A DNA stretch of 40,905 bases from Acidimicrobiales bacterium. Its GTDB lineage: Bacteria; Actinomycetota; Acidimicrobiia; Acidimicrobiales; Acidimicrobilacustridaceae. The notes beneath the pieces are model-generated. The model saw nothing but the letters and a program-made list of their open reading frames with translations. It had not been told where the DNA came from and did not search any database. This document shows positions 25,198 through 40,121 of this stretch, in pieces. Position 1 is the first letter of the stretch. Each line of letters opens with the position of its first letter. Made by a program: the position numbers and the translations under genes. The stretch is from the NCBI GenBank assembly GCA_030830565.1, contig JAURMR010000002.1:1-40905 (forward strand). The letters run 5' to 3'.

Positions 25198-25239
25198 TTC
25201 ATTTGCGCAGAGGTCGTACCCGTGAGGCAGGATGAGGAT

Positions 25240-26109
25240 ATGGAACGCATTTCTCCAACTCGTGCAGTGACGCAGGACGAAGTCGAGACTTTTTGGCGCG
25301 ACGGCGTTGTCTGTTTGAGGTCGATTCTTCCCCTCGATCTTGTCGCTTCGATGGAGGCTCCTATTGAAGACGCGCTCTCGGGCACCGCGATGGCCAATCT
25401 CTCCGAGATGGCTGATGCGCTCGAATCTGGCGGCATAGCTCGTCTTGTTGATGACTCGGTGGCGTCGTCAGGAGCACCCCGCGGTCAGTTCAGGGCAGGT
25501 ACTGATCACTGGCTTGTTCAAGAAGAATTCCGAGAGTTTGCACTTCGGTCGCCGCTACCCGGAATTGTCGCGTCTCTTCTTCAAAGCGATGAGGTGCGTC
25601 TCTACGAAGACAGTGTGTTGGTGAAGGAACCAGGAACACAGGAGAAGACCGGATTCCATCAGGACATGGCGTATTTTCATCTCGACGGCGATCTTGTCTG
25701 CACGACGTGGGTCCCACTCGATGTTGTCACTGCTGAAATGGGAGCAGTTCGATTTGTCGTCGGCTCTCATCTCGACGCCACGAAGTATCGGCCGACCATG
25801 TTCGTTTCGGAACTCGCGATTCCCGGAACTGAAGGTGCAGAGGTTCCCGACTACGACAAGCAGGTGGGCGAGGCGCGAATCATTAGTTTCGACACCGCAC
25901 CTGGCGATCTCACTGTTCATCACGCACGAACTATTCACGCAGCGAGCGGAAACTTGAGCCGCACCCAGCGCCGAAGGGCAATCAGCGTTCGCTACACAGG
26001 TGACAACACGCGCTTCAGGGTTGTAGCCGGTTCACCCATGAAGGAACATCACAGTTCGCTTGTCGAAGGCGAACTTCTGAACGATGCCTGTCCTCTTGCC
26101 TGGCCATAA
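25240..26109 (+). CDS. Phytanoyl-CoA dioxygenase (PhyH) family protein
   Basis: A 289-residue Fe(II)/2-oxoglutarate oxygenase. H140-x-D142 in GFHQDMAYF and H233 in TIHAASGN form the facial triad; the Arg in RRAISVRYTGD likely binds 2-oxoglutarate. ATG 25240 is preceded by AGGATGAGG; an upstream GTG at 25222 is possible. Members hydroxylate lipids, amino acids or natural products; no substrate can be named. Convergent with the following membrane-anchored protein. Confidence 0.9.
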   Translation: MERISPTRAVTQDEVETFWRDGVVCLRSILPLDLVASMEAPIEDALSGTAMANLSEMADALESGGIARLVDDSVASSGAPRGQFRAGTDHWLVQEEFREFALRSPLPGIVASLLQSDEVRLYEDSVLVKEPGTQEKTGFHQDMAYFHLDGDLVCTTWVPLDVVTAEMGAVRFVVGSHLDATKYRPTMFVSELAIPGTEGAEVPDYDKQVGEARIISFDTAPGDLTVHHARTIHAASGNLSRTQRRRAISVRYTGDNTRFRVVAGSPMKEHHSSLVEGELLNDACPLAWP

Positions 26110-26111
26110 CG

Positions 26112-26948
26112 TCAGCGGGTTGGCGTTAACGACGACAACTGCCACTCGCCATCTTCTTTGTAGGTGACTTCGCCGACGGGTGAATCGGTCCGCAAATTGA
26201 TGTGGCGTTCCATTCGTACAAGCAGCATGTCCTGGACGGAATACCAATACTCAATCGTGGTCGTTCCCTTTTGCGGACCGCTAAGGACATCATTTTCGCG
26301 GTAGTGGAAAGTTGGGAGAGCGACTGAGTCGATGTCAATGGATGTGGCGCCCAGTGACTCGAAGGTGACCGCAGACGTCGTTGTCCCGCTAATGCTGTCG
26401 CTGGTTCCGGTGCAGGTGTAGGTCGAAACTTCGTCACGACGTTCGCCCGTCTTGACGATCTCACCAGGAGGCGAGCAGTCGAACTCGGAGACATTGGTGA
26501 TTGACGTTGCGCCGAGATCCCAGCCGGTGACGGTGTGATTGCTGTGTTCGGTAAGGACACCATTTTCGATGCAGTAGTTCCATCGCTGCTGGAAAGCCGT
26601 ATTGAAATCGACTGTGGTTGTCCAGCAGTTGTCGCCTTGATGGGTCACGGTCACGGGTGCAGACGCGCCGTAATTCTGACTTGTCGGGGGAAAGCTGATC
26701 GACGCCTTTCCTGATGCGTCGGCTCGATACACGCCGGCGGGCGGCCGCACGACGACAGCACCAATCGATTCGACGGCAGAGGTGTCTCCTTGGCGAAATG
26801 CATGTAGCGCGTCATTGAGGGACTTCGCTCCAGGATTGTCACGAAAGACGAACATCGAAAGCAGCACGATGATCGGAATGAGAACGAGGGCCGCGATGAT
26901 GGAGCCAGTGATGGCGATCCATCGCAACGAATGTCGCGAATCGGACAT
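26112..26948 (-). CDS. Membrane-anchored protein of unknown function
   Basis: A 278-residue protein with one N-terminal membrane helix (about residues 10-33) and an extracytoplasmic part rich in beta-prone Thr/Ser/Val. Four cysteines in the outer part (CWTTT, YCIE, FDCS, YTCTG) may form two disulfides. Two similar segments, WDLGATSI and ESLGATSI, suggest an internal duplication. ATG 26948 has GGGAGGTG upstream and beats the longer frame. I do not recognise the family. Confidence 0.72.
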   Translation of the reverse strand: MSDSRHSLRWIAITGSIIAALVLIPIIVLLSMFVFRDNPGAKSLNDALHAFRQGDTSAVESIGAVVVRPPAGVYRADASGKASISFPPTSQNYGASAPVTVTHQGDNCWTTTVDFNTAFQQRWNYCIENGVLTEHSNHTVTGWDLGATSITNVSEFDCSPPGEIVKTGERRDEVSTYTCTGTSDSISGTTTSAVTFESLGATSIDIDSVALPTFHYRENDVLSGPQKGTTTIEYWYSVQDMLLVRMERHINLRTDSPVGEVTYKEDGEWQLSSLTPTR

Positions 26949-27057
26949 CGCACCTCCCAATCGAGTGGCCCGGGATTCAATCTACGACGGTGCGGTGGCT
27001 GCGTACAGGGCAGCGCAATTCGAGATGCTGAAACTCTCGTTGACGATCTGAAAAACA

Positions 27058-27990
27058 TCAGATCCGGTAGTCGGTGACCTGTGTGTCTTCGGTGCCCAGA
27101 TCGGTGAAGTTGTCATAGGCCCGCGCGGCCATGAAATCTCGCCATGCAAAGGGCCGATAGCGCGGACCGGACTCTGAGAGTTCGGGGATGGGTTCAATCG
27201 TCGCTTCGCGCGGCGGATTCGCGAAATACGGAATCGAGAAGCGGCGATGTTTGGTCATCGGAACAACTCGATGAATTGCCGCGCGGTAGCGATCGTTCGT
27301 CCATGCTTGTGTGCAATCGCCAAGGTTGACCACAATCGTGCCCGGTTCGGGCGGAACATCGATCCAACTGCCATCGGACGCGAGCGTCTGCAGTCCTCCG
27401 GTTTCATCTTGAAGGAGGAGCGTGAGGGTTCCGGGATCAGTGTGGTGGCCAAGGGCAACGTCACCAAGGTCGGCCAGCCCGTCTCGCTCATCGTCAGGAA
27501 CGGGATCGCCGACCGTATAGAGGTTGAGTCGAACGGTGCTTCCTTGGCGCGCGCATGTGAGCGCGTCACTTGAGGTGGGGCCGAGATCAAGGATCGAATG
27601 GAGAAGTGCAGTTGTTCGTTGCGCGAGGTCACTCATCGCCTCAAAGTGCTGCACCATGGCATCGCGAAAACCAGAGAGTTCGGGCCAGCGGTTCATGGCA
27701 TCGCCAACAGAGGGGTCAACGAAATCGAAGACCTCTTTATGGTCTCGAACGCGCTTGGTGAGTTCCCGGTCGAACCAACCCAAGGGGTTCTGCTCGGTTC
27801 GTCGGATTGCGGTGCGGGTTGCCCGAGGAGCATCGAAGAACCGCTCGGTTTCACTCCACGTTTCACTGATGACGGAATCGAGGCCATGTCCAACAAGGAG
27901 GAAGAACCCATGGTCGCGGCAAGCAGAGTCGAGTTCATCTCGTGCTGTGGCGCTGGGATTGGTGATGTCAAGGATTGGAACGGCGGGCAT
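27058..27990 (-). CDS. Isopenicillin N synthase-family 2-oxoglutarate/Fe(II) oxygenase
   Basis: A 310-residue oxygenase. The N-terminal DIOX_N part (VPILDITNP, DHGFFLLVGHG) and the 2OG-Fe(II) core with H183-T-D185, H240 and R250-x-S252 are complete. Bacterial relatives include ethylene-forming-type and unassigned hydroxylases. The catalytic set indicates activity; substrate unknown. It is about 70 bp from, and divergent to, the LLM monooxygenase starting at 28060, so both may respond to one signal. Confidence 0.92.
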   Translation of the reverse strand: MPAVPILDITNPSATARDELDSACRDHGFFLLVGHGLDSVISETWSETERFFDAPRATRTAIRRTEQNPLGWFDRELTKRVRDHKEVFDFVDPSVGDAMNRWPELSGFRDAMVQHFEAMSDLAQRTTALLHSILDLGPTSSDALTCARQGSTVRLNLYTVGDPVPDDERDGLADLGDVALGHHTDPGTLTLLLQDETGGLQTLASDGSWIDVPPEPGTIVVNLGDCTQAWTNDRYRAAIHRVVPMTKHRRFSIPYFANPPREATIEPIPELSESGPRYRPFAWRDFMAARAYDNFTDLGTEDTQVTDYRI

Positions 27991-28059
27991 ATCCCATTGT
28001 GGCCCGTCGGTCGTTGTTCCGCCTGACCCGACTCGGCGCCGTCGTCCTAGGCTTAGGGA

Positions 28060-29052
28060 ATGGGTGTTCCTCTTGCGATTCTTGATCTCGCCATAATCGG
28101 CTCAGGTGATTCCGTTGCCGATGGGCTCAACGCATGTGTTGAGGTAGCGAAGACCGCAGAAGCGAATGGCTACAGCCGGGTTTGGTACGCCGAGCATCAC
28201 AACATGGATGCGGTTGCGTCTTCGGCAACGGCGGTACTCATCGCCCATGTGGCAGCAAACACCGAGTCAATCCGTTTGGGTTCGGGCGGCATCATGCTTC
28301 CGAATCATTCGCCCCTCACTATTGCTGAACAGTTCGGCACTCTTGCGACGTTGCATCCCAATCGAATCGATCTCGGGCTTGGTCGTGCTCCAGGGACAGA
28401 CCAAGTCACCGTGCAAGCGCTTCGGCGCGACCCGCGTGCTTCGGAGTATTTCCCCCAAGATGTTCTTGAACTTCAGGCCTTCCTCGGTGATACGACGCGA
28501 GTTCCGGGCGTTCATGCAACCCCGGGCCGCGGAACACACATCCCGATCTACATCCTCGGTTCCTCTCTCTTCGGAGCCGAGCTCGCTGCAGTGCTTGGTC
28601 TCCCATTCGGATTCGCTTCGCATTTCGCGCCGCATCAACTTCGTGAAGCAGTCGCGTTGTATCGATCAAACTTCCGTCCGTCCGAGCAACTCGATCATCC
28701 GCATGTGATCGCTGGAGTGAACGTGATCGCTGCTGATTCTGAGGACGACGCACAGTCGCAATTCACAACTACACGCCGGGCACGACTCCGCCGCTTCCTC
28801 CTGAAGCCGAATGTCGATGTTCCCGATGCCGAAGTCGACCGAATCCTTGCGTCTCCTCAAGGAGCGCAGATCGCAGCCATGATGAAGCACACCGCTGTGG
28901 GAACGCCCTCTGCAGTGCGTGATCAATTGCTCGAGTTCACTGACTATGCCCAAGCCGATGAGCTAATGGTTTGTCACCAGTCACCCACGATTGAAGAGCG
29001 TTTGCGCTCGATCGAACTCACAGCAAACGCAATGGAACTCGTGGGGGTCTAG
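28060..29052 (+). CDS. Luciferase-like monooxygenase (MsnO8-type LLM)
   Basis: A 330-residue LLM enzyme. [56 protein letters not shown] and [13 protein letters not shown] are signature blocks of the MsnO8 subgroup of FMN/F420-dependent monooxygenases. Full length. Substrate unknown. It ends 37 bp before a convergent membrane protein, with a hairpin between them. Confidence 0.93.
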
Positions 29053-31160: not shown

Positions 31161-31719
31161 TTCCGCTGCCACCGCAGCAACGATGGTTGTCACGATTCCG
31201 GCTGGGCTTTCGGTGGAGGCTGTTCCTAGCGGATGCACCGCATCGGGCGTCACGGTTACGTGTGCGTTGGGCGACCTCGCAAACGGCGCATCAGCAACGA
31301 TTGACATAGAGGTTCGCTCGGCGAGTACGCCGGTTCCGACATCGCGAGACACCGAAGTGGTCGTGGCCTCGAACACAGCTGATCCAATCCCCGAAAACGA
31401 CGTGGACCTCACTCCACTGGCTACGACCGCTGCTCCAACAATCGATTCGGTGACACCAGGATCGGGCTCGGAGTCAGGCGGCACTGAGGTAACCATCGAC
31501 GGCACAAATCTCACAACGGAAACCACTGTCGAAATCGGCGGCGTGCCATGTGAGCCAGTCATTTTTGTCACGACATCGCAGCTGATCTGCACCACGGGCC
31601 CCCAGGATCCCGGGGTGTTCGACGTGATTGTGACGACTGCCGATGGCCAGACAGCAACGCTCGTCGGAGGCTTCACCTACGTCGAGACCCCTGACGTCGC
31701 CCCTTCGTTCACGGGTTAA
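31147..31719 (+). pseudogene. Remnant of a DUF11 / IPT-TIG surface protein
   Basis: The open frame begins just after an in-frame TAG (31144-31146). It reads GPSAAT, a signature of DUF11 domains, upstream of the first ATG (31183), then TIPAGLSVEAV and VTCALGDLANGASATI (the rest of DUF11). An IPT/TIG domain follows: PTIDSVTPGSGSESGGTEVTI with IGGVPC and GGFTY. There is no signal peptide and no promoter room after the hairpin. This looks like the 3' end of a larger surface protein gene whose 5' part was lost. If translated from 31183 it would yield 178 residues with no export signal. Confidence 0.65.
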
Positions 31720-31736
31720 GCGTCGCGTTCCAACTC

Positions 31737-32089
31737 GACAAGATTCAGGGGTGAAGAATCGCGCCCGGCATGACGGCGGGCCTGGATCCGTTGACGGACT
31801 GAACGTGGTTGATTACCGTGCCGCGCAACAGGTGGAGTTCCAGTTACTGATCCCCTGAACCAAAGGAATCCCCATGAGCGCATCCGAAGCAGACCGCTTC
31901 ATCGCCGAGCTCCTGAGCAACCAGGAACTCGCCAAGAAACTCACCGATTTGGGTAGCGATCCCGCTGCTGCCTACGCCGAAGTGCAAGCACAAGGCTTCG
32001 ACGTCACTCCTGAAGAACTTCGAGATGCGACCCTCGAGCTCGCTGGTCAGTACATGAACGAGGACGAACTTGAAGCAATCGCAGGCGGC
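31737..32089 (+). repeat. Tandem duplication unit, copy 1 (promoter plus Nif11 leader)
   Basis: This segment matches 32253-32605 without indels at an offset of 516 bp: same upstream hairpin, same promoter layout, and 71 of 72 leader codons translating identically. Similarity stops at the Gly-Gly site. Confidence 0.85.
31791..31819 (+). promoter_or_regulatory. Promoter of Nif11 gene 1
   Basis: TTGACG (31791-31796), a 17-bp spacer and TACCGT (31814-31819), 54 bp before the ATG. The spacer begins with GACTGAAC, also found at the other two promoters of the array. A small GCCCG/CGGGC hairpin lies just upstream at 31763-31781. Confidence 0.65.
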
Positions 32090-32221
32090 ATGAACACACT
32101 TGCTATGGGGGTGGCTGGAGGTGTAGCCGGCGGTGTAGCTGGTGGCATTGTCTTAGCTGGCGGCAGCCTCGGCCTCGCTACGGCAGTCGCAATTACCGGT
32201 TCTGCCGCCGCTGCCGCCTGA
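31874..32221 (+). CDS. Nif11-like leader peptide precursor 1
   Basis: A 115-residue RiPP-type precursor. The leader (1-72) has the Nif11 pattern: an N-terminal helix with EADRF, a second helix, GFDVTPEELRDA, then QYMNEDELEAIAGG with the Gly-Gly site at 71-72. The 43-residue core starts MNTLAMG, contains three VAGG units in a row and ends TGSAAAAA. It has no Cys and few Ser/Thr/polar residues. ATG 31874 follows AAAGGAATCCCC. It has its own promoter. Nif11 leaders direct modification enzymes and exporters in known clusters; none is here. The core could form a Gly-zipper helix. Confidence 0.88.
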   Translation: MSASEADRFIAELLSNQELAKKLTDLGSDPAAAYAEVQAQGFDVTPEELRDATLELAGQYMNEDELEAIAGGMNTLAMGVAGGVAGGVAGGIVLAGGSLGLATAVAITGSAAAAA

Positions 32222-32256
32222 GCGGTTGAAGGAGCAACTCGTCAGCCTCGTCGACA
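32219..32256 (+). pseudogene. Relic of the start of a gene-4-like precursor
   Basis: From the stop of precursor 1, the sequence matches the region from the stop of precursor 3 through the ribosome site and first codons of precursor 4 (33087-33124): shared CGGTTGA, GGAG, and AGCCTCGTCGAC, about 31 of 37 bases. The start codon GTG of gene 4 reads GTC here, and the similarity ends at the left edge of duplication copy 2. Confidence 0.6.
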
Positions 32257-32605
32257 GGATTCGGGGGCGAAGAATCGCGCCCGGCATGACGGCGGGCCTG
32301 GATCCGTTGACAGACTGAACTTGGTTGAGTACGGTTCGGCGCATCAGGTGGAGTCCCATCTGACCCGACCCTGAACCAAAGGAATCCCCGTGAGCGCATC
32401 CGAAGCAGACCGCTTCATCGCAGAACTCCTGAGCAACCAAGAACTCGCCAAGAAACTGACCGATTTGGGTAGCGATCCCGCTGCTGCCTACGCCGAAGTG
32501 CAGGCCCAAGGCTTCGACGTCACCCCTGAAGAACTTCGAGATGCGACCCTCGAGCTTGCTGGTCAGTACATGAATGAGGACCAACTTGAAGCAATCGCAG
32601 GCGGT
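32253..32605 (+). repeat. Tandem duplication unit, copy 2
   Basis: Counterpart of 31737-32089 at a constant 516-bp offset. The join at its left end is the GTCGAC where a relic of another precursor gene start (32222-32252) is cut off. Confidence 0.85.
32307..32335 (+). promoter_or_regulatory. Promoter of Nif11 genes 2-6
   Basis: TTGACA (32307-32312), 17-bp spacer opening with GACTGAAC, and TACGGT (32330-32335), 54 bp before the GTG start. The -35 box is a consensus match, one base better than copy 1, so it may be stronger. Confidence 0.7.
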
Positions 32606-32728
32606 CTTTCCGCGGGCGCAACCGCAGGTATTGCGGTGGGTGCAGCTGCAACCGGCGCTGTAGCCGGTGGCATTGGCGTCGGTGTGGCAATCGCAGTCAC
32701 TGGTTCCGCTGCCGCTGCCGCCATCTGA
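32390..32728 (+). CDS. Nif11-like leader peptide precursor 2
   Basis: A 112-residue precursor. Its leader differs from precursor 1 at one of 72 positions (Gln for Glu in NEDQLEA), while the core (40 residues, LSAGATAGIAVGAAATG at its start and TGSAAAAAI at its end) is different in its first half. The start is GTG where copy 1 has ATG, with the same AAAGGAATCCCC site. Core is Gly/Ala/Val-rich, without Cys. First gene of a probable five-gene transcript (genes 2-6) with gaps of 16-38 bp. Confidence 0.88.
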   Translation: MSASEADRFIAELLSNQELAKKLTDLGSDPAAAYAEVQAQGFDVTPEELRDATLELAGQYMNEDQLEAIAGGLSAGATAGIAVGAAATGAVAGGIGVGVAIAVTGSAAAAAI

Positions 32729-32765
32729 TCTGGTCGTCGACAGACACCACAAGAAGGGAACACTC

Positions 32766-33089
32766 ATGAGTGCAAGCCAAGCCGACGCGTTTATCGAGAG
32801 GCTTTCCGCCGACGAAGCCTTTGCGGCCGAAATCGACGCCGTGAAGAACTCGCCGGAGCAGGTGCAAGCAATTGTTGCGGCCGCCGGTTTTGAGGCAACC
32901 CCGGAAGAGATCCGCGAGGCTTGGCTTGCCTCAATAGGTGAGTACCTGACTGAAGAACAGTTGGCCGAAATCTCGGGCGGCGTCTGGGAAAGTTCCGAGA
33001 TCGCCTACGCGGCAGTTGCTGGCACCGTCAGTGTCGTCGCGGTCGGCGTCATCGTTGCGTCCTGCGCATCTGCGGCCGCTGCCGCCTAA
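32766..33089 (+). CDS. Nif11-like leader peptide precursor 3
   Basis: A 107-residue precursor with leader SASQADAFIERLSADEAFA, then GFEATPEEIREA and LTEEQLAEISGG (Gly-Gly at 71-72 or so; Ser replaces the usual Ala). The core (VWESSEIAYAAVAG, then VVAVGVIVASCASAAAAA) is the only one with a Cys, close to the Ala tail. ATG 32766 has an AAGAAGGGAA site. The core is strongly hydrophobic after its first eight residues. Confidence 0.86.
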   Translation: MSASQADAFIERLSADEAFAAEIDAVKNSPEQVQAIVAAAGFEATPEEIREAWLASIGEYLTEEQLAEISGGVWESSEIAYAAVAGTVSVVAVGVIVASCASAAAAA

Positions 33090-33108
33090 ACGGTTGAGGG
33101 AGTAACCC

Positions 33109-33408
33109 GTGAGCCTCGTCGACGCAACGCTTTTTATCGATCGAATCGTTGTCGACGACGAATTCGCGCAGGAATTAAGCGAACTTTTAGACAACCCCAC
33201 TGACGTGGTTTTTGCAGTTCGCAAAGCGGGATACGACGTCACTGTCGACGAAGTTCGTGATGTTTTTCTTGAACGATTCGGCGACGTTCTTCCCGAAGAT
33301 GAACTCGCTGCAATCGCTGGTGGCATCGTGCAGGGAGACGATTTTCTCGCGCGCGGATTGTCGACTGGTCGCACACCAGGAATGACCGCCGCGGCTGCTG
33401 CGGCCTAA
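33109..33408 (+). CDS. Nif11-like leader peptide precursor 4 (short polar core)
   Basis: A 99-residue precursor from GTG 33109 (site GAGGGAGTAA). Leader MSLVDATLFIDRIVVDDEF, then GYDVTVDEVRDVFLERFG and DELAAIAGG. The core is only 27 residues, starts IVQGDDFLARGLSTGRTPGM and ends in six alanines. Unlike its neighbours it is charged and not membrane-like before the Ala tail. It may give a different kind of product. Confidence 0.85.
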   Translation: MSLVDATLFIDRIVVDDEFAQELSELLDNPTDVVFAVRKAGYDVTVDEVRDVFLERFGDVLPEDELAAIAGGIVQGDDFLARGLSTGRTPGMTAAAAAA

Positions 33409-33423
33409 ACGAAAGTTTTTGTC

Positions 33424-33732
33424 ATGTCACATACCGCAGCCGAAGCATTCATCGATCAGGTAGCAAGTAACCCTGATCTGCTCCTCCAACTTGAAAACGC
33501 TCGCCACTCAATCGATGACGTTGCGGCGGTCATTGCCACCTCCGGTTACGACGCAACCCCTTATGAAGTTGTCGATGCATTCCTCGAACGGTTTGGTCGC
33601 TTTTTGAACGATGACGTCCTTGCTCAGTACGCAGGTGGCTACACGACGGATGGGTTGACGACGGTGGAAATCTTGGCGCTCTATGCGTCGGTGTTTGAGT
33701 ACCTGCGAAACCCAAATTCACTGCCGTTCTGA
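33424..33732 (+). CDS. Nif11-like leader peptide precursor 5 (no Ala tail)
   Basis: A 102-residue precursor. Leader MSHTAAEAFIDQVASNPDL, then GYDATPYEVVDAFLERFG and DVLAQYAGG. The core (30 residues) is YTTDGLTTVEILALYASVFE followed by YLRNPNSLPF: aromatic and aliphatic, with no Gly-rich run and no C-terminal alanines. It is the outlier of the array. Start ATG 33424 lies 16 bp after gene 4 with a weak site (AAAG). Confidence 0.83.
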   Translation: MSHTAAEAFIDQVASNPDLLLQLENARHSIDDVAAVIATSGYDATPYEVVDAFLERFGRFLNDDVLAQYAGGYTTDGLTTVEILALYASVFEYLRNPNSLPF

Positions 33733-33769
33733 CACCATTGTTTTCCGCTAACCGAAATTGGAGTCCGCT

Positions 33770-34081
33770 ATGACCATCGAACAAGCAGAAGCATTCGTCA
33801 CACGCCTGGAGTCGGACTCAGCATTTTCTGACCAGCTGGCCGAACTCAAAGCGTCGCCCGAACAGGTGATGGAGCGCGTGCGTGCCGAAGGCTTCGACGC
33901 CACTCCCGAGGAAATTCGTGATGTCTTCCTCGAGCATTTCGGCTCCGAGCTCAACGAAGACCAGTTGGCCGAAATCGCCGGTGGTCTGAGCAACGAGCAA
34001 ATCGGCAACATCGTCACTGGGGTTGGCGTCACGGTGACTGCCGCCGCAATCGCCGGCGCATCAGCTGCTGCTGCCGCCTGA
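33770..34081 (+). CDS. Nif11-like leader peptide precursor 6
   Basis: A 103-residue precursor. Leader MTIEQAEAFVTRLESDSAFS, then GFDATPEEIRDVFLEHFGSE and NEDQLAEIAGG. The core (31 residues) is LSNEQIGNIVTGVGVTVTAA, then AIAGASAAAAA. GGAG precedes ATG 33770; an in-frame GTG-less extension upstream is not needed. Last gene before a 145-bp gap with a new promoter. Confidence 0.87.
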   Translation: MTIEQAEAFVTRLESDSAFSDQLAELKASPEQVMERVRAEGFDATPEEIRDVFLEHFGSELNEDQLAEIAGGLSNEQIGNIVTGVGVTVTAAAIAGASAAAAA

Positions 34082-34135
34082 TTCAAGCCGCGAGCAGTCA
34101 GGACGTGCCCTGATTCCCAGTAGGCACTGGGTTGC

Positions 34136-34164
34136 TTGCTTCGGACTGAACTGAGTTCTATAGT
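34136..34164 (+). promoter_or_regulatory. Promoter of Nif11 genes 7-9
   Basis: TTGCTT (34136-34141), 17-bp spacer and TATAGT (34159-34164), 63 bp before the ATG. The spacer contains GGACTGAAC (34143-34151), shared with the other two array promoters but shifted by 2 bp relative to the -10 box. Confidence 0.65.
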
Positions 34165-34179
34165 TCCGAGTACGCAGGA

Positions 34180-34195
34180 TTCAGCAAAAGCTGAA
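34180..34195 (+). promoter_or_regulatory. Small hairpin in 5' leader of Nif11 gene 7
   Basis: TTCAGC and GCTGAA flank an AAAA loop between the promoter and the AAGGGGGA ribosome site. It may stabilise the transcript; function unknown. Confidence 0.4.
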
Positions 34196-34226
34196 CCCTC
34201 AAGACACCCATGAAGGGGGACGAACC

Positions 34227-34574
34227 ATGAGCATCGAAGAAGCCGATCGGTTCATTGCTGATATCCGCGCCAATCCAGAGAAGTTCGACGACCTCGAGGC
34301 CATGGGCCGCGAGGGCGAAGCACTCGCCGTATTCGAAAAGGTCCAGACCATGGGTTACGACGCCACCGGCGACGAAATCCGCGAAGCCTTCCTTGAATAC
34401 ATCAGCGAAGAACTCGACGCCGACCAACTTGAAGCCGTTGCCGGTGGTCTCTCGGATGGTGGCGCAATCGGTATTGCCGCTGGCGCCGCTGTTGGCGTTG
34501 GTGCCGCGGCCGGCACAGCTATTGCGGTCGTCGTTGTCGCAACTTCATCCGCTGCAGCTGCTGCTGCCATTTAA
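34227..34574 (+). CDS. Nif11-like leader peptide precursor 7
   Basis: A 115-residue precursor. Leader MSIEEADRFIADIRANPEKF, then GYDATGDEIREAFLEYISEE and DADQLEAVAGG. The core (41 residues) begins LSDGGAIGIAAGAAVGVGAA, continues with VVVVATSS and ends AAAAAAI. AAGGGGGA precedes ATG 34227. First gene of a unit with genes 8 and 9, spaced 25-28 bp. Confidence 0.88.
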   Translation: MSIEEADRFIADIRANPEKFDDLEAMGREGEALAVFEKVQTMGYDATGDEIREAFLEYISEELDADQLEAVAGGLSDGGAIGIAAGAAVGVGAAAGTAIAVVVVATSSAAAAAAI

Positions 34575-34599
34575 GAACTCACACGACTAAGGAGACATC

Positions 34600-34920
34600 A
34601 TGAGCACCAAGGAAGCCGATCGCTTCATCGAACGCACCGCATCCGATCAGGAATTTCTTGCTTCAATTGAAGCGCTTGGCAACGATGCCGACGCTGTTTT
34701 TGCCCTTGTGCAATCTGAAGGATTCGACTGCACGCCCGAGGAAATCAAAGAAGCATTCCTTGAGGCCTACGCGTCGCAATTGACCGCCGAACAGCTCGAA
34801 GCAGTTGCTGGGGGCCTCTCCACCAGCGAAGGTCTTGGCATCGGCCTTGGCGGCGGTCTTGGTGCTGTCGCTGTTGGCGTCGGTGTGGCTTCAGCAGCAA
34901 TCGCTGCTGGCGCGGTTTGA
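34600..34920 (+). CDS. Nif11-like leader peptide precursor 8
   Basis: A 106-residue precursor. Leader MSTKEADRFIERTASDQEF, then GFDCTPEEIKEAFLEAYASQ and TAEQLEAVAGG; note a Cys inside the leader. The core (34 residues) is LSTSEGLGIGLGGGLGAVAV then GVGVASAAIAAGAV; its C terminus is AAGAV rather than an unbroken Ala run. AAGGAGA precedes ATG 34600. Confidence 0.87.
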   Translation: MSTKEADRFIERTASDQEFLASIEALGNDADAVFALVQSEGFDCTPEEIKEAFLEAYASQLTAEQLEAVAGGLSTSEGLGIGLGGGLGAVAVGVGVASAAIAAGAV

Positions 34921-34948
34921 GAACAGAACAATCGACCTAGGAGATCCA

Positions 34949-35260
34949 ATGCCTTATAACGACGCAGACGCATTCCTCGACCACATTGCCGAGGACGAGG
35001 CGCTGCAGGAAGAGTTCCGCTCCGCTACCACCGAAGACCAGATCCTGGCGATCCTCGCCCGCGAGCAGGTCACCTGTACTCCAGCCGAAATCCGTGACGC
35101 GTTCCTCGAGCGCTTTGGCTCTGAATTGAATGAAGAACAGCTGGCCGCCATTGCTGGTGGCATCGACGCCGCCACGATCGGTGCGGCAGTTGGTGTGGGC
35201 ACTGGCATCACTGTCGGTGTCGCCGTTGCGGTGGGTGCGTCGGCTGCTGCAGCGGCCTGA
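34949..35260 (+). CDS. Nif11-like leader peptide precursor 9
   Basis: A 103-residue precursor. Leader MPYNDADAFLDHIAEDEAL, then VTCTPAEIRDAFLERFGSE and NEEQLAAIAGG, again with a Cys in the turn before TPxEI. The core (31 residues) is IDAATIGAAVGVGTGITVGV, then AVAVGASAAAAA. TAGGAGA precedes ATG 34949. A probable terminator follows, closing the array. Confidence 0.87.
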   Translation: MPYNDADAFLDHIAEDEALQEEFRSATTEDQILAILAREQVTCTPAEIRDAFLERFGSELNEEQLAAIAGGIDAATIGAAVGVGTGITVGVAVAVGASAAAAA

Positions 35261-35272
35261 CTTCCCGTCTCC

Positions 35273-35304
35273 GGCCAGTAAAACCGCTGGTCAGAGGGTT
35301 TTTT
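35273..35304 (+). terminator. Probable terminator of the Nif11 array
   Basis: GGCCAG (35273-35278) pairs with CTGGTC (35287-35292), including one G-T pair, and a run of six T follows at 35299-35304. It lies 12 bp after precursor 9. Confidence 0.5.
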
Positions 35305-35344
35305 AGAAAATCCTCAAAAAAGTGTGACTGTCAGCCTCCTCGGT

Positions 35345-35377
35345 GACTCTTCCTTGCAGACATTGCAACGAAGAGTC
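35345..35377 (+). promoter_or_regulatory. Long inverted repeat just before a ribosome site
   Basis: GACTCTTC (35345-35352) and TTGCA (35354-35358) pair with TGCAA (35364-35368) and GAAGAGTC (35370-35377): 13 pairs with one C-C mismatch and a 5-nt loop. It ends 3 bp before the AGGAGG site of the gene at 35392. Either an operator or an mRNA structure controlling that gene. Confidence 0.55.
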
Positions 35378-35391
35378 CCCAGGAGGACGTC

Positions 35392-35997
35392 ATGAACACC
35401 ACCACCACCAACAACACAAACACCGAACACTCGAGTGCCAAGAAGAAGCTGGCCGTCGTTGTCGGAGCCTTCATCATCTTGGTGGCGCTGGCGGCGCTGG
35501 TGGGAGAACTGTCCTGGGGCCAAAAGTCACAGGCTGAATCAGTCCCGGCAGTGCAGGTTGCGCCGGCATCAAGCACATCGTCGGCGGCCGGCACATCATC
35601 GGATGGCTCGGCAGCATCGGCGGGCCAAGGTGCCAACAACGCCACGGATGCAGCTGCGCCCGCATCGGTCGATGCCGACGGCAAGGCGGTAGTTCCGGGT
35701 TCGACGCCAGGTACATCGGTGGCCCCGGGTGCAACGACGCCGGTTCCTGCTTCTCCGGTTGCTCCTGGTTCGCCAGTGACCACACCGTCCACCAATGTGA
35801 ACCCCTCGGTTCCGGTCACGGTGCCATCGAACCCCAGCGATGACCATGACGACCACGGTGACGACGATGCTCATGAGTCCGATCGCCGCCACGGTGTTGA
35901 CGACCATGCGGTGGATCACTCTGATCGCCACGACGAGAGCGAGCGTGAGTCACACGGAAACGACGACAACGCACACCGTGAGCACAACGATCGTTGA
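35392..35997 (+). CDS. Membrane-anchored protein with Asp/His-rich tail
   Basis: A 201-residue protein. A Thr/Asn-rich N terminus, KKK, and one membrane helix (about 20-41, LAVVVGAFIILVALAALVG) put the rest outside. A Ser/Ala/Pro/Thr-rich linker (about 50-145) resembles cell-wall spanning regions. The last 52 residues are almost all Asp, His, Glu, Arg, Ser and Asn (for example DDHDDHGDDDAHE), a likely metal-binding or highly charged tail. It has an ideal AGGAGG site, a long inverted repeat upstream and a very strong terminator downstream, so it is its own unit. Family not recognised; codon bias of the tail may inflate the open frame, but the initiation signals support it. Confidence 0.75.
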   Translation: MNTTTTNNTNTEHSSAKKKLAVVVGAFIILVALAALVGELSWGQKSQAESVPAVQVAPASSTSSAAGTSSDGSAASAGQGANNATDAAAPASVDADGKAVVPGSTPGTSVAPGATTPVPASPVAPGSPVTTPSTNVNPSVPVTVPSNPSDDHDDHGDDDAHESDRRHGVDDHAVDHSDRHDESERESHGNDDNAHREHNDR

Positions 35998-36099: not shown

Positions 36100-37008
36100 G
36101 TGACATTTCGCGTATCGAAAGGCGTACAGCCAACTGCAACCGACGCCGAACTTGTCGAAGCGATCGTCAACGGAAACGAGCAAGCATTTGCAGTGCTTTA
36201 TGACCGTTATGCAGATCGCGTGTATTCATTTTGTTTGACGCTGACTCGTGATCGAGGACTCGCTGAAGACGTTGTGTCAGACACGTTCGTTGCCGCATGG
36301 CAAAACATGTCGGCATTACGAGACCCTTCAGCAGTTCGCGCGTTTCTTTTTCGCATCGCAAGGAATCGAGTCGCGCGTGTTGGTGAACGTACCGCACGAC
36401 AGGTGCCCGTCGATCCGGAAGGTTCGGTGCTTGCTTCGCTCGCAGCTGAAGTCGATGTTGCCGATGGTGTGAGCGAAAAATCTGAAGGTGGTTCGTTGCG
36501 CGACGAATCTTTCGAACTTGTTTGGGCCGCGGCAGAAGGCCTAAACGAAAACGAACGCGCGGTGCTCGAACTTTCTGTGCGTCAGGGTCTCGAAGGCGAA
36601 GAGCTGGCAAAGTCGATGGGAGTGACGCGTCATAACGCCACAGTGCTCACATCGCGAATGCGCGCCAATCTTGAACGGTCCATCAGTGCGCTGTATCTCG
36701 TTCGCCAGGACAATCCGCGTTGTGAGGAATTCCGACAGGTGACGACCACCTACGAGGGTGTCTTCACACCGGTGTGGCGCAAGCGCATTGGTCGGCACAT
36801 CGATCAGTGCGCCTATTGCGAGGGTCGGTCTCGTTCGACGGCGCTTTCGACCTTTGCGGCATCCCCGTTGGCTGCCGCCCCAGTCGAGTTGCGGGCCAAG
36901 ATTCTCAAGCGGGCCACGGGCCTGGTGCGGGCCTTCATCGCCGGGAGTCGGCAGCTTGAAGCCAAGGCCAAAGCGGCAGCGACAGGGCCCGTGGACGCAG
37001 AGGCCTGA
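36100..37008 (+). CDS. ECF-type sigma factor with fused zinc-binding anti-sigma-like motif
   Basis: A 302-residue sigma-70 family protein from GTG 36100. Region 2 (about 28-95: NEQAFAVLYDRYADRVYSFC, then AEDVVSDTFVAAWQ) and region 4 (about 150-205: LNENERAVLELSVRQGLEGEE, then MGVTRHNATVL) are clear. The extra C-terminal part holds C208 then H233-IDQ-C237-AY-C240, the Cx24Hx3Cx2C arrangement of zinc anti-sigma domains, followed by a helical Ala-rich end. This suggests a built-in sensor or regulator rather than a separate anti-sigma gene; none is encoded next to it. Likely targets include neighbouring envelope genes, but this is inference. Confidence 0.85.
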   Translation: MTFRVSKGVQPTATDAELVEAIVNGNEQAFAVLYDRYADRVYSFCLTLTRDRGLAEDVVSDTFVAAWQNMSALRDPSAVRAFLFRIARNRVARVGERTARQVPVDPEGSVLASLAAEVDVADGVSEKSEGGSLRDESFELVWAAAEGLNENERAVLELSVRQGLEGEELAKSMGVTRHNATVLTSRMRANLERSISALYLVRQDNPRCEEFRQVTTTYEGVFTPVWRKRIGRHIDQCAYCEGRSRSTALSTFAASPLAAAPVELRAKILKRATGLVRAFIAGSRQLEAKAKAAATGPVDAEA

Positions 37009-37121
37009 CCCCGATCCCTTTGAGAGCAGGCCGAACGCCGTCAGCCTTGGAAAAATCGGCATATTGAACTAAATTCAGCGCCCTGCGCGGAGAGTCTCCA
37101 CTCGACGCGCTTTTTCTGACT

Positions 37122-39356
37122 ATGCGCTCAACTCTCCTTCCTGCCTCTCGCCCTGCCCGACGTCGATCCGGCGCGTCCACGACCACTCGTGGCACGGCCG
37201 CGATCGCAGTGGGAGCGACCTTGGTCGCGGGTTCGGGAGGCGTGGTTCTGAGCCTGCTGGCCAGTACCGAGGCTGGCGCTGCGCCGAGCGATCTCATCGT
37301 CAGCAACTTGCTCGACAACTCAAACCCCGGTTCGCTGCGTCACGCCATTGAATATTCAAACGCCAACGGCGGCGGTGCCATCACCGTGCAGTCGGGGCTC
37401 ACCGGCACGATCAACCTTGCGTCGAACCTGCCCTACATCACGAATCCGATTTCGATTACTGGTCCCGGAAGTGGGTCGCTAGCGGTTGATGGCGGCGACA
37501 CGTTCAAGATGTTCGACACCGGCACCTCGTCGATCACGATCAGTGGGTTGTCTCTTACGAATGCGGGCGGCAACCAGGCTGCAATTCAAGCCGGACACTT
37601 CTCCTCTAGCCCTTCGTTTCTCAACGTTCACGCTCCCGTCGTATTGAGTGATGTTGTCATCACCGGTGGGACCGGTAGCGGCGTTGCGAGCTCGAACTAC
37701 TCGAATGGTTCGTACCTCAATTCGTCGTTGACTAATTGTGTCATCACAGGTAACGCGGGTTCGGGTGTAGCGACAACGGATATGAATTGGACCGTCAGCG
37801 GTTCGGATATTTCATATAACGCTCAAAGTGGATTTAGCGACGCCTATGGACAGACGGTGACGCTCAGCCACTCAACGTTTAGCCACAATGGTGGACGAGG
37901 TATTGATCTTTTCGCTACACGCGGAGTATCGATAGACAACGTCGAATCTGCTCACAATGTGTCGAGTTTCGGAGCCGGTCTTCGAATGCGTGGTTCCGGT
38001 AACGGTGCGACGGTGACCGACTCCTCATTCCACGACAACACCGCTACCTACTTTGGTGGTGCGGGCGTGTGGCTCTACGGCGGTACGTTCAACTTCACTC
38101 GGGTGACTGTGAGCGACAATGTCTCTGCGCTCGGGGGCGGAATGGCGATCGGTTCGTTCTCAACGGTGGATATCACCGACTCGGACATCACCGGCAATTC
38201 GGCATCCGGGAAGGGTGGCGGCCTTTCGATCGCGAACACCAACCTGCAAGCAAACACCAAGGTCACGCTCACCAACACTTCAGTTACGGGTAACACCGCA
38301 GCTGGCGGCGGTGGGGGAATCTCGGTCGACAATGCTCGCCTGTACACCGATAACGCGGAGATTTCGAATAACGATGGCAATCACGCTTCGGGCACCGCAA
38401 AGGGTGGCGGTGTTTTACTCGTGCGTTCGCAAGCCGAGTTCGTTTCTTCGGTGCTTGACGGCAACTCCGCCTATGCCGGTGGTGGCGTGAGAGTTTCCAG
38501 TTCTACCGTCAATGTGCTGTATTCAGCAATCACGTCGAATGTTGCGACACAAGGTGGCGCTCTCAGTATCACTTCGCAGTCAACCGTCTCGATCGATCAC
38601 TCCCTACTCGCCGACAACTTGGGCACTCTTGGTGGCGCGTTGTGGAGCGATATTTCAAGCACGACGCTCAATAACACCACGATCACTGGCAACCAGGCCG
38701 CGTCGTATTCGGTTGCTCGTCTTTTGGGCGGAAGTTCGCTCACCGTTGTTGAGTCAACAATTGCCCAGAACACAGACTCTGCCGTTGCTCCGACCGAAGC
38801 CATCTCTGGTCCCGATGCAACTTCGTCGTTCACGAGTTCAATTCTTTGGGGCAATACGCGCAACAACACGAATGAAGTTGGCAACACGACCAGCGTTTCG
38901 GGAACGACCTTCACAAACTCAATCGTTGATCATCACGGAACCATTGTTGATGGTGGCGGCAACTTGGCTTCGGATCCGTTGCTTGCTCCGCTTGCCGATA
39001 ACGGCGGCCAGACCGACACGATGGCGCTGACCTACGGCAGCCCTGCACTCGATGCCGGATCGACCGCCTCGACCAGTTCCTTCGACCAACGCGGTGCCGG
39101 CTTCACTCGCAAAATTGGTTCGCACTTGGACATTGGTGCCTACGAAGCGCAAACGCCTCCAACCCCACCGACACCGACGACCACCATCCCCGACAACGGC
39201 GGCGGCGGTTCGGATCCGGCCGATGGCGGGTCGGGTAGCGGTTCGCTTCCAGTAACGGGTGTTGAGTTCGGCGCGACGCTTGCTGGTGGCGCTGTCTTAC
39301 TGACGGGCGGCGGTCTCCTGGCCGGGTTTGCTCGTCGTAATCGCAAGCTGATCTGA
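37122..39356 (+). CDS. LPXTG-anchored beta-helix surface protein
   Basis: A 744-residue exported protein. The N terminus (RPARRRSG, then AAIAVGATLVAGSGGVVLSLL ending near TEAGAAPS) is a long signal peptide. The mature part is a right-handed parallel beta-helix with many N-T-x-x-G-G-G rungs (about 60-640), closing with the LASDPLLAPLADNGGQTDTM block and GAYEAQ typical of choice-of-anchor proteins. A Thr/Pro linker leads to LPVTG at 709-713, a hydrophobic helix and RRNRK: a complete sortase signal. It would be covalently fixed to the peptidoglycan. Adhesion or polysaccharide binding is likely. Related to the unanchored protein at 12587-13831. ATG 37122 has no clear ribosome site. Confidence 0.88.
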   Translation: MRSTLLPASRPARRRSGASTTTRGTAAIAVGATLVAGSGGVVLSLLASTEAGAAPSDLIVSNLLDNSNPGSLRHAIEYSNANGGGAITVQSGLTGTINLASNLPYITNPISITGPGSGSLAVDGGDTFKMFDTGTSSITISGLSLTNAGGNQAAIQAGHFSSSPSFLNVHAPVVLSDVVITGGTGSGVASSNYSNGSYLNSSLTNCVITGNAGSGVATTDMNWTVSGSDISYNAQSGFSDAYGQTVTLSHSTFSHNGGRGIDLFATRGVSIDNVESAHNVSSFGAGLRMRGSGNGATVTDSSFHDNTATYFGGAGVWLYGGTFNFTRVTVSDNVSALGGGMAIGSFSTVDITDSDITGNSASGKGGGLSIANTNLQANTKVTLTNTSVTGNTAAGGGGGISVDNARLYTDNAEISNNDGNHASGTAKGGGVLLVRSQAEFVSSVLDGNSAYAGGGVRVSSSTVNVLYSAITSNVATQGGALSITSQSTVSIDHSLLADNLGTLGGALWSDISSTTLNNTTITGNQAASYSVARLLGGSSLTVVESTIAQNTDSAVAPTEAISGPDATSSFTSSILWGNTRNNTNEVGNTTSVSGTTFTNSIVDHHGTIVDGGGNLASDPLLAPLADNGGQTDTMALTYGSPALDAGSTASTSSFDQRGAGFTRKIGSHLDIGAYEAQTPPTPPTPTTTIPDNGGGGSDPADGGSGSGSLPVTGVEFGATLAGGAVLLTGGGLLAGFARRNRKLI

Positions 39357-39429: not shown

Positions 39430-39454
39430 ATTCCGATACGGTCCGCATCGTAAT
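39430..39454. promoter_or_regulatory. Palindromic operator over the TetR start codon
   Basis: ATTCCGATACGG (39430-39441) and CCGCATCGTAAT (39443-39454) flank a single T and match as an inverted repeat at 10 of 12 positions. The right arm includes the first two bases of the TetR start codon. It contains a TACGGT -10-like box 10 bp before the ATG, and there is no Shine-Dalgarno, which fits a leaderless mRNA. Confidence 0.6.
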
Positions 39455-40121
39455 GGGGGAGAACACGAACGAGCAGACCTCGGCCGGTCGGCCGCGAGAC
39501 CCGCGACTTGATGCCGCGATCATCGACGCGACCATCGACCTTCTCACGGAGCGTGGCTACAACGAGTTGAGCCTGGCCGCCGTTGCGGAACGCGCGGAAA
39601 CAACGACCGCTGCGATTTATCGCCGGTACGGATCAAAGTCTGAACTTGTCACCAAGGCCGTGTTCCGCACCGATGGTGATGATGTTGTTGCGGATACTGG
39701 CGACCTCGAAGCCGACCTCGCCATGATGATTCGATGGTCGGTGGAGAAACTTCAACGCCCCGCAGCGTTGGCTGCGATCATTGGTCTTCTTGGCGAGTCG
39801 AAATCCGAACGCAAGAAGAACGTCGTTGAATCTCGTTCTGCAACGCAACTCACTACCGAGCGTCTCGAGCGTGCGAAGGCCGCAGGTGAGTTGCGCGGCG
39901 ATGTTGATGCTGCGCTTCTTGCTTCGCTGATTGATGGTCCTGTACTTCACGTTGTTCTTGGCGGCATGACGACGCCGATTGACGATGCGTGGATTGCGCA
40001 ACTTGTACAGGTCGTGCTCAATGGCGCCCGCGCAGACGCGACGCGCACAGCTTCGACTACTCGTCACCCGAAATCTCGAACCCACACAACTCCGAAAACC
40101 CGAAAGGTCACTTCGCTATGA
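39453..40121 (+). CDS. TetR-family transcriptional regulator
   Basis: A 222-residue regulator. The N-terminal helix-turn-helix (about residues 18-62: AAIIDATIDLLTERGYNELS, then VAERAETTTAAIYRRYGSK) is typical; the ligand domain (about 80-195) is closest in outline to TetR_C_11/16-type domains. A Thr/Arg/Lys-rich tail follows. It overlaps the downstream dehydrogenase by 4 bp (ATGA), so both are expressed together, and a palindrome over its own start suggests autorepression relieved by the substrate of the dehydrogenase. Confidence 0.92.
   Translation: MGENTNEQTSAGRPRDPRLDAAIIDATIDLLTERGYNELSLAAVAERAETTTAAIYRRYGSKSELVTKAVFRTDGDDVVADTGDLEADLAMMIRWSVEKLQRPAALAAIIGLLGESKSERKKNVVESRSATQLTTERLERAKAAGELRGDVDAALLASLIDGPVLHVVLGGMTTPIDDAWIAQLVQVVLNGARADATRTASTTRHPKSRTHTTPKTRKVTSL

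Follow-up and report, generated by a model that had tools for sequence, protein, structure and literature searches.

The nine Nif11-leader genes that lie in tandem at 31874-35260 of contig JAURMR010000002.1, from an Acidimicrobiales bacterium, raise the question of which enzymes, if any, modify their products. The window analyzed here is this entire contig of 40,905 nucleotides (C3) of the metagenome-assembled genome (MAG) G000, and a second contig of the same genome, C32 (23,278 bases), also carries precursor genes. We consider it reasonably probable (roughly 0.6) that the window array is a remote set of precursors of ribosomally synthesized and posttranslationally modified peptides (RiPPs) for a YcaO-TfuA, thioamide-forming Nif11 system encoded on C32. 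The simplest account would be that one enzyme set serves two precursor sets, acting on the window's nine in trans.

One precursor family in two parts of the genome

By profile search, G000 encodes 18 Nif11 precursors, nine in the window and nine on C32. Two YcaO genes and one TfuA gene lie among the nine sister precursors on C32, and none lies beside the window array. The C32 genes are arranged as five precursors, a TfuA-methyltransferase fusion, HlyD, a C39 peptidase-ABC protein, a second ABC protein, YcaO1, four precursors, and YcaO2. The TfuA domain (PF07812, E 6.3e-41) is fused to a Methyltransf_2 (O-methyltransferase-type) domain, both being read in one 818-aa frame (9658-12114 of L009, a stretch of C32; true start perhaps 9724). 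YcaO1 matches YcaO PF02624 with E 5.8e-59 and is 66-67% identical to YcaO2 (L009, 18056-19330, and L010, 1752-3014, respectively), with the four precursors between them. The C39 peptidase-ABC exporter scored 875.8 bits against TIGR03796 (cut-off, 853.3) and contains Peptidase_C39, which places it among NHLM-type exporters; the second ABC protein (TIGR03797, 666.6 versus 709.4) and HlyD (TIGR03794, 97.4 versus 156.2) stayed under their cut-offs. The best NCBIfam matches of YcaO1 and TfuA were the McrA-glycine thioamidation proteins (TIGR03266 and NF033432), both under the equivalog cut-offs, and their best PDB matches were MJ1094 (6pe3) and a TfuA (6xp8). The nearest named models and structures are thus those of the methanogen YcaO-TfuA system that forms McrA thioglycine, but that system acts on a large enzyme and not on a RiPP precursor. 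The assembled genome holds one C39 peptidase and one TfuA, both on C32, and two YcaO matches (YcaO1 as query, E <= 0.001). No match to DUF4135 (LanM, PF13575) was found in G000, the assembly of which is incomplete, in searches that did not extend to radical SAM genes.

The two precursor sets share one kind of leader. All 18 leaders fell on one side of the branch that separates them from four leaders of other families of the order (100/99 in an unrooted tree with 11 of its 19 inner forks open and the G229 leader on a long branch), the two sets were intermixed in this tree, and leader identity was 42% between the C3 and C32 sets as well as within the window. Several forks were likewise open in a YcaO tree, in which G288b_L069 formed a long branch. 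Over the 18 precursors, mean identity was 43% for the leaders and 33% for the core bodies, versus 30% for shuffled cores. Two features go beyond the first-pass annotation of the window, which had been made from its letters and open reading frames: the equally large second precursor set on C32 and a concentration of Ala at the C termini. A run of at least four Ala occurred within the last eight residues of seven of the nine window cores and six of the nine C32 cores, and the genome-wide count of 13/18 was reached in none of 20,000 trials in which residues were shuffled within cores. Similarly, Ala accounted for 45 of the 72 last-eight residues in the window and for 48 of 72 on C32, where the shuffles gave means of 21.7 and 23.3 and reached neither value in 20,000 trials.

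The nine genes of the array and their surroundings

The first-pass annotation had placed nine consecutive Nif11-leader genes at 31874-35260, with leaders ending in (I/V/Y)(A/S)GG and cores of 27-43 residues, and had named a lack of Nif11 matches as a result that would refute it. According to the open reading frames and their translations, nine tandem plus-strand genes fill exactly this span, separated by gaps of 15-37 bases with two exceptions of 168 and 145; the leaders end in IAGG, ISGG, YAGG, or VAGG, with GG in all nine, and the cores starting after GG have the lengths described. A profile search with TIGR03798 (leader_Nif11; curated cut-off, 32.3 bits) matched all nine precursors with E values from 3.3e-7 to 1.4e-14, eight of them over the cut-off. 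The precursor at 33109 reached 32.5 bits only if neighbours in frame were counted and 34.9 bits by hmmscan, over the cut-off, and that at 34227 gave 31.3-31.6 bits, slightly under it. Hmmscan, which covered four of the nine window genes, returned TIGR03798 as the top match for each, with an Os1348 NHLP-clan model below its cut-off for one, and met no proteusin-type nitrile-hydratase-like leader in these four. Proteusins of the polytheonamide type are alike in having a long leader and a small aliphatic core, but their leader is nitrile-hydratase-like, whereas that found here is Nif11.

The earlier observation that eight of the nine cores lack Cys also held, as only the core of 32766 contains this residue. 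Genome-wide, 17 of the 18 cores are Cys-free, and none has the C-terminal Cys that thioamitides use for their AviMeCys macrocycle. Seven window cores, previously described as small-residue sequences suited to membranes, are indeed strongly hydrophobic, with a grand average of hydropathy (GRAVY) of 1.06-1.65; those of 33109 and 33424 (0.30 and 0.24) are not. The cores contain hydrophobic stretches and many small-xxx-small spacings and have a net charge of 0 to -2, and, with the last eight residues set aside, Ser and Thr make up 16% of the core sequence. Such hydrophobic, nearly uncharged cores would suit membranes. The view that these are RiPP-type Nif11 precursors with cores unlike those of lanthipeptides likewise agrees with the genome-wide result for DUF4135.

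Gene 1 (31874-32221; TIGR03798 E 9.6e-11) encodes a leader of 72 aa running to AIAGG and a core of 43 aa ending in GSAAAAA. As seen by DNA alignment, gene 2 (32390-32728; GTG start; E 4.3e-9) has a near-identical leader and a diverged core ending in GSAAAAAI. The sole Cys-bearing core, of 35 aa and ending in SCASAAAAA, belongs to gene 3 (32766-33089; E 1.4e-14), which is followed by gene 4 (33109-33408; GTG start; E 2.2e-7) with a weakly hydrophobic core of 27 aa ending in TAAAAAA. The exception of the array is gene 5 (33424-33732; E 2.3e-8), the 30-aa core of which lacks an Ala tail and ends in LRNPNSLPF. Genes 6 (33770-34081; E 3.6e-12) and 9 (34949-35260; E 7.9e-11) encode cores of 31 and 32 aa that both end in GASAAAAA. 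Between them, gene 7 (34227-34574; E 3.3e-7, 31.6 bits) combines a 74-aa leader with a 41-aa core ending in SSAAAAAAI, and gene 8 (34600-34920; E 1.6e-13) has a 34-aa core ending in ASAAIAAGAV, Ala-rich without a run of four. An AlphaFold2 model of precursor 9, built on the 18 precursors (mean pLDDT 69.7), has a helical leader (block pLDDT, 72-91 through residue 70) and shows low confidence for the core, from about residue 72 on; this fits a leader-core split at GG.

Genes 1 and 2 have about 120 upstream bases and nearly the whole leader in common, and most of the stretch upstream of gene 2 (32222-32389, plus strand) repeats that at about 31755-31873 upstream of gene 1. Their leaders differ at 12 codons (10 synonymous differences, one start codon, and one Glu to Gln), and this mostly synonymous change fits a translated frame. 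The cores differ by many substitutions and gaps, with the tail retained. Judged from the aligned sequences, the pair is a duplication in which the leader was kept and the core diverged. A sigma-70 scan of 31600-35400 gave no promoter-like site (0.8 in shuffles) and two terminator-like sites (3.5 in shuffles), and Rfam (gathering thresholds) and tRNA scans of the window gave no matches. A spacer motif upstream of three precursors was dropped as unproven. It had four matches in the window versus 3.6 expected, one of them exact (34136), and the right offset at only one of the three supposed sites; in L009, 27 matches on both strands compared with 18.0 expected, and 5 of 200 shuffles were as high.

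Judged by gene identity, both contigs look native to the genus, and contamination is unlikely. Four same-genus genomes have matches of 96-98% identity (one partial) to the window gene at 28060, and for the ParA gene next to the C32 cluster identity is 69-77% in 5 of 20 other same-genus genomes; G+C and tetranucleotide profiles agree as well (correlations, 0.87-0.95). From comparison with these relatives, the array sits in a variable stretch. In G019, 84 bases replace the array-bearing segment 31164-39962 (blastn of the window against L090), window 31163 being joined to 39963 across them between flanks of 81-87% DNA identity; in G002 and G020, these flanks enclose different genes and not the array. 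Since the G019 deficit spans most of a TetR gene (39453-40121) that G002 retains, G019 may have lost the segment. G002 also has a long TIG-domain gene where the window holds its last part alone, the window gene at 31183-31719 resembling the last part of a 1123-aa protein that is still long in G002 (L092, 8631-12002).

Directly downstream of the array, 36100-39356 encodes a sigma-70-type factor and then a beta-helix protein with an LPVTG-like sorting signal at its end. At both ends of C32, inspection by eye showed pieces of beta-helix type together with similar regulator-like genes (L009, 92-1045 and 1931-2605; L010, 3032-3751 and 3831-4190), and this contig may end in repeats. Nine window genes were scanned with Pfam, and no RiPP-modifying family was found among them. 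Three are of oxygenase type and lie 2-7 kb upstream of the array (25222-29052; a PhyH dioxygenase, a 2OG-Fe(II) oxygenase, and a luciferase-like monooxygenase); these are probably unrelated to it, because same-genus genomes without the array retain them.

Nif11, YcaO, and TfuA genes in relatives

Within the genus, Nif11 matches occurred in G000 alone of 21 genomes. A 4-kb contig of G006 carries the terminal part of one ABC gene, then another ABC gene and the beginning of a YcaO with 70% identity. Elsewhere in the family, YcaO and TfuA are paired in G022, and a YcaO match (34%) occurs in G025; no Nif11 gene was seen on reading their YcaO stretches, and the order-wide Nif11 profile scan gave no match in G022 either. 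Scanning named contigs with both YcaO proteins yielded three loci, all from Actinomycetota MAGs, which, judging by sample names, we take to come from lakes and the Caspian. In L024, HlyD, C39-ABC, ABC, YcaO1, and YcaO2 are consecutive, and L025 and L026 start inside an ABC gene and continue with YcaO1, L026 also containing YcaO2. Both YcaO copies are thus kept in two of the three named relatives, without precursors between them. No Nif11 leader was found in the three stretches, all of which end, with their contigs, just upstream.

Among 397 genomes of the order, Nif11 was detected in 9 (8 over the cut-off), TfuA in 12, and both in 6, a co-occurrence more frequent than expected by chance, with a Fisher value of 5e-9, or 5e-7 when collapsed to genera. 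The 2 x 2 count left out G241, in which Nif11 is under the cut-off; G075, G121, and G233 belong to one genus and G229 and G288 to one family, for which reason the count was repeated by genus. YcaO and TfuA genes adjoin Nif11 genes in G113, G229, and G288, TfuA and Nif11 lie within 2 kb on one contig of G075, and the Nif11 gene of G084, at a contig end, is overlapped or followed by a frame that looks by eye like the start of a YcaO. Cores in these genomes are mostly of small residues, and those of G229 and G288 end in AAAAAAF and AAAAAA. These two genomes (L054 and L055) each have a single Nif11 precursor, which adjoins YcaO, TfuA, and a sulfotransferase-family gene and the core of which starts with G(A/V)G(T/A)WISAT and has six consecutive Ala at its end. 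In G075 and G233 (L047 and L049), which also carry TfuA, Nif11 precursors encoded near LanM have small-residue cores that contain Thr, so that dual lanthipeptide-thioamide systems are possible there; a leucine carboxyl methyltransferase-like gene lies nearby (profile-checked in L047 only).

In a phylum sample, Nif11 was found in 6 of 396 genomes including G000, 4 of them over the cut-off. Outside the order, a radical SAM gene lies beside at least one precursor in G511 and G739, and the five listed cores are Cys-rich without an Ala tail, a small contrast. We disregarded as doubtful a single match in each of G767 and G750, as well as two matches in G241 that were under the cut-off. No plasmid record matched a window precursor at E 0.01. 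YcaO1 matched 304 plasmid records, all at <60% identity, and no Nif11 leader was found in five TfuA-bearing plasmid regions fetched from 353 matching records.

A proposed trans-acting pathway and its alternatives

Parts of this arrangement have precedents. The accessible portion of PMC8120280 describes Nif11-like precursors in TfuA-YcaO clusters of Cyanobacteria and Proteobacteria, including a Desulforegula conservatrix TfuA cluster with Nif11-like precursors and dedicated transporters, and that of PMC9576775 reports a singly thioamidated peptide, the thioamide not being localized, from a refactored D. conservatrix cluster; we infer that both concern one cluster. The C39 protease LahT150 was applied to NHLP/Nif11 cores in the latter work, although some peptides there were not processed by it. 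These clusters, as far as those portions describe them, share with G000 the Nif11-like leader, GG site, YcaO, and TfuA, and differ from it in that here the host is an actinobacterium, 18 precursors form two separate sets, the cores are Ala-tailed, and there are two YcaO copies. The same portion of PMC8120280 reports a TfuA fused to a methyltransferase in Nonomuraea, of PCMT type, unlike the Methyltransf_2 domain on C32. Thiostreptamide S4 needs YcaO and TfuA and bears thioamides on Val2, Met3, Ala5, and Ile6 of an aliphatic, Ala-containing core; the enzyme pair and this kind of core are paralleled here, but no Nif11 leader or C39 export is described in the text examined (PMC8153245). Nitrile-hydratase-type precursors occur in actinobacterial TfuA networks, according to the accessible part of PMC6511847. 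Prochlorosins, as described in part of PMC10783134, resemble the present system in having Nif11-family leaders, many variable-core precursors, one promiscuous enzyme, and a conserved GG; their enzyme ProcM, however, is of the class II lanthipeptide type and some of their core Cys positions are conserved, whereas no LanM domain was found in G000 and its cores, with one exception, are Cys-free. A literature search made largely without subscription papers and supplements found no Nif11-YcaO-TfuA system of Actinomycetota, and the split, many-precursor, Ala-tailed actinobacterial form looks new. To our knowledge, characterized thioamidated peptides come from clusters with few precursors.

In the pathway that we propose, the shared enzymes would recognize the helical Nif11 leader, as suggested by the occurrence of one leader family in both sets. 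Going by homology, one or both YcaO proteins, with sulfide supplied via the TfuA domain, would then turn backbone amides of the core into thioamides, perhaps within the conserved Ala tail or close to it, although the tail as modification site is a guess. The TfuA-fused methyltransferase may add a methyl group; from their family membership, cleavage after GG would fall to the C39 domain, and export of the mature peptide to HlyD and the two ABC proteins. Leader-keeping duplication with core divergence would thus yield a product library from one enzyme set. The first-pass annotation had proposed peptides that are either unmodified or unusually modified and that may serve as multi-component bacteriocins or surface peptides. 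Unusual modification has become likelier and its absence less so, given that C32 has two YcaO genes, a TfuA fusion, and a C39 exporter interspersed with nine sister precursors. Thioamidation would be the likeliest chemistry, as TfuA is present, thiostreptamide S4 needs the same kind of enzyme pair, and a refactored D. conservatrix cluster gave a thioamide. Signs of a thioamide reported in the accessible parts of two of the papers are H2S loss on fragmentation (PMC8153245) and absorbance near 270 nm (PMC6511847).

Several observations weigh against a trans-acting YcaO-TfuA set. The array and the enzymes are on different contigs of a MAG with an estimated completeness of 71%, so the absence of other enzymes from the assembly is not proof; the portion that is not assembled could encode a further enzyme set, and radical SAM genes fell outside the searches. 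On C32, TfuA and YcaO are about 6 kb apart, not adjacent. Nif11 matches are absent from 6 of the 12 genomes of the order that have TfuA, and LanM also occurs in five of the eight Nif11 genomes, so that TfuA is not the sole candidate modifier there. The tail is not universal either: in G113, where YcaO-TfuA lies beside Nif11, at most one Ala is present among the last eight residues of four of the nine listed cores, core 33424 of the window has none, and that of 34600 is broken (five Ala, no long run). Moreover, YcaO enzymes also make azolines and amidines, and the thioamide chemistry is assigned by homology and the presence of TfuA. The products could, then, carry another backbone change of this kind, or further enzymes such as an epimerase could act on them. 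The versatility of YcaO enzymes (PMC13063428, in its accessible part), the Ser/Thr content of the cores, and searches that did not extend to radical SAM genes would leave room for this; a TfuA is present, however, the nearest named models and solved structures are of the thioamidation type, and nearly all cores lack Cys, which makes non-thioamide products quite improbable in our judgment.

It is also conceivable, though unlikely, that the window array yields unmodified GG-cleaved peptides, class II bacteriocin-like or membrane-directed, that leave through the C32 C39 exporter while YcaO and TfuA act on the C32 precursors only. Their small-xxx-small spacings, hydrophobic stretches, and near-zero charge are as in helix-packing peptides, and the Pfam-scanned window genes offer no RiPP-modifying family; nevertheless, the window and C32 sets have the same kind of leader and tail, so the window precursors should be accepted by any enzymes that act on those of C32. 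The Ala tail, for its part, might not be a modification site. Ala tails, like ssrA, are known as C-terminal degradation tags, and Ala enrichment at the extreme C terminus, the sole feature common to most cores, could mark uncleaved or unexported precursors for removal or simply be a helix end. However, half of the 18 precursors have Ile, Val, Ser, or Phe and not Ala as their last residue, and the Ala-rich core ends in other families are often followed by Phe, Ile, Val, or Leu, which leaves this explanation rather doubtful. Finally, the absence of the array from the same variable site in G019, G002, and G020 would suit a remnant that is silent or in decay and has no functional enzyme set, but the nine frames are open, the leaders are intact, and 10 of the 12 codon changes in the duplicated leaders are synonymous, so that we regard decay as very improbable.

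More tentatively than the trans-acting YcaO-TfuA set itself, we suggest that G000 may harbor a prochlorosin-like thioamide system, in which one promiscuous YcaO-TfuA-methyltransferase set would act on at least 18 precursors in two places, with sulfuration at or near the poly-Ala tail, and would give a diversifying library of long, nearly uncharged, membrane-suited peptides in an uncultured actinomycetotal lineage. If true, 18 sister precursors with one leader family, a common Ala tail, and freely varying cores would offer a natural set for tests of YcaO-TfuA recognition. The system would also bring the prochlorosin question, why one enzyme makes many products, to another chemistry and another phylum. 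RiPP mining confined to the neighborhoods of modifying enzymes would overlook half of the known precursors of G000.

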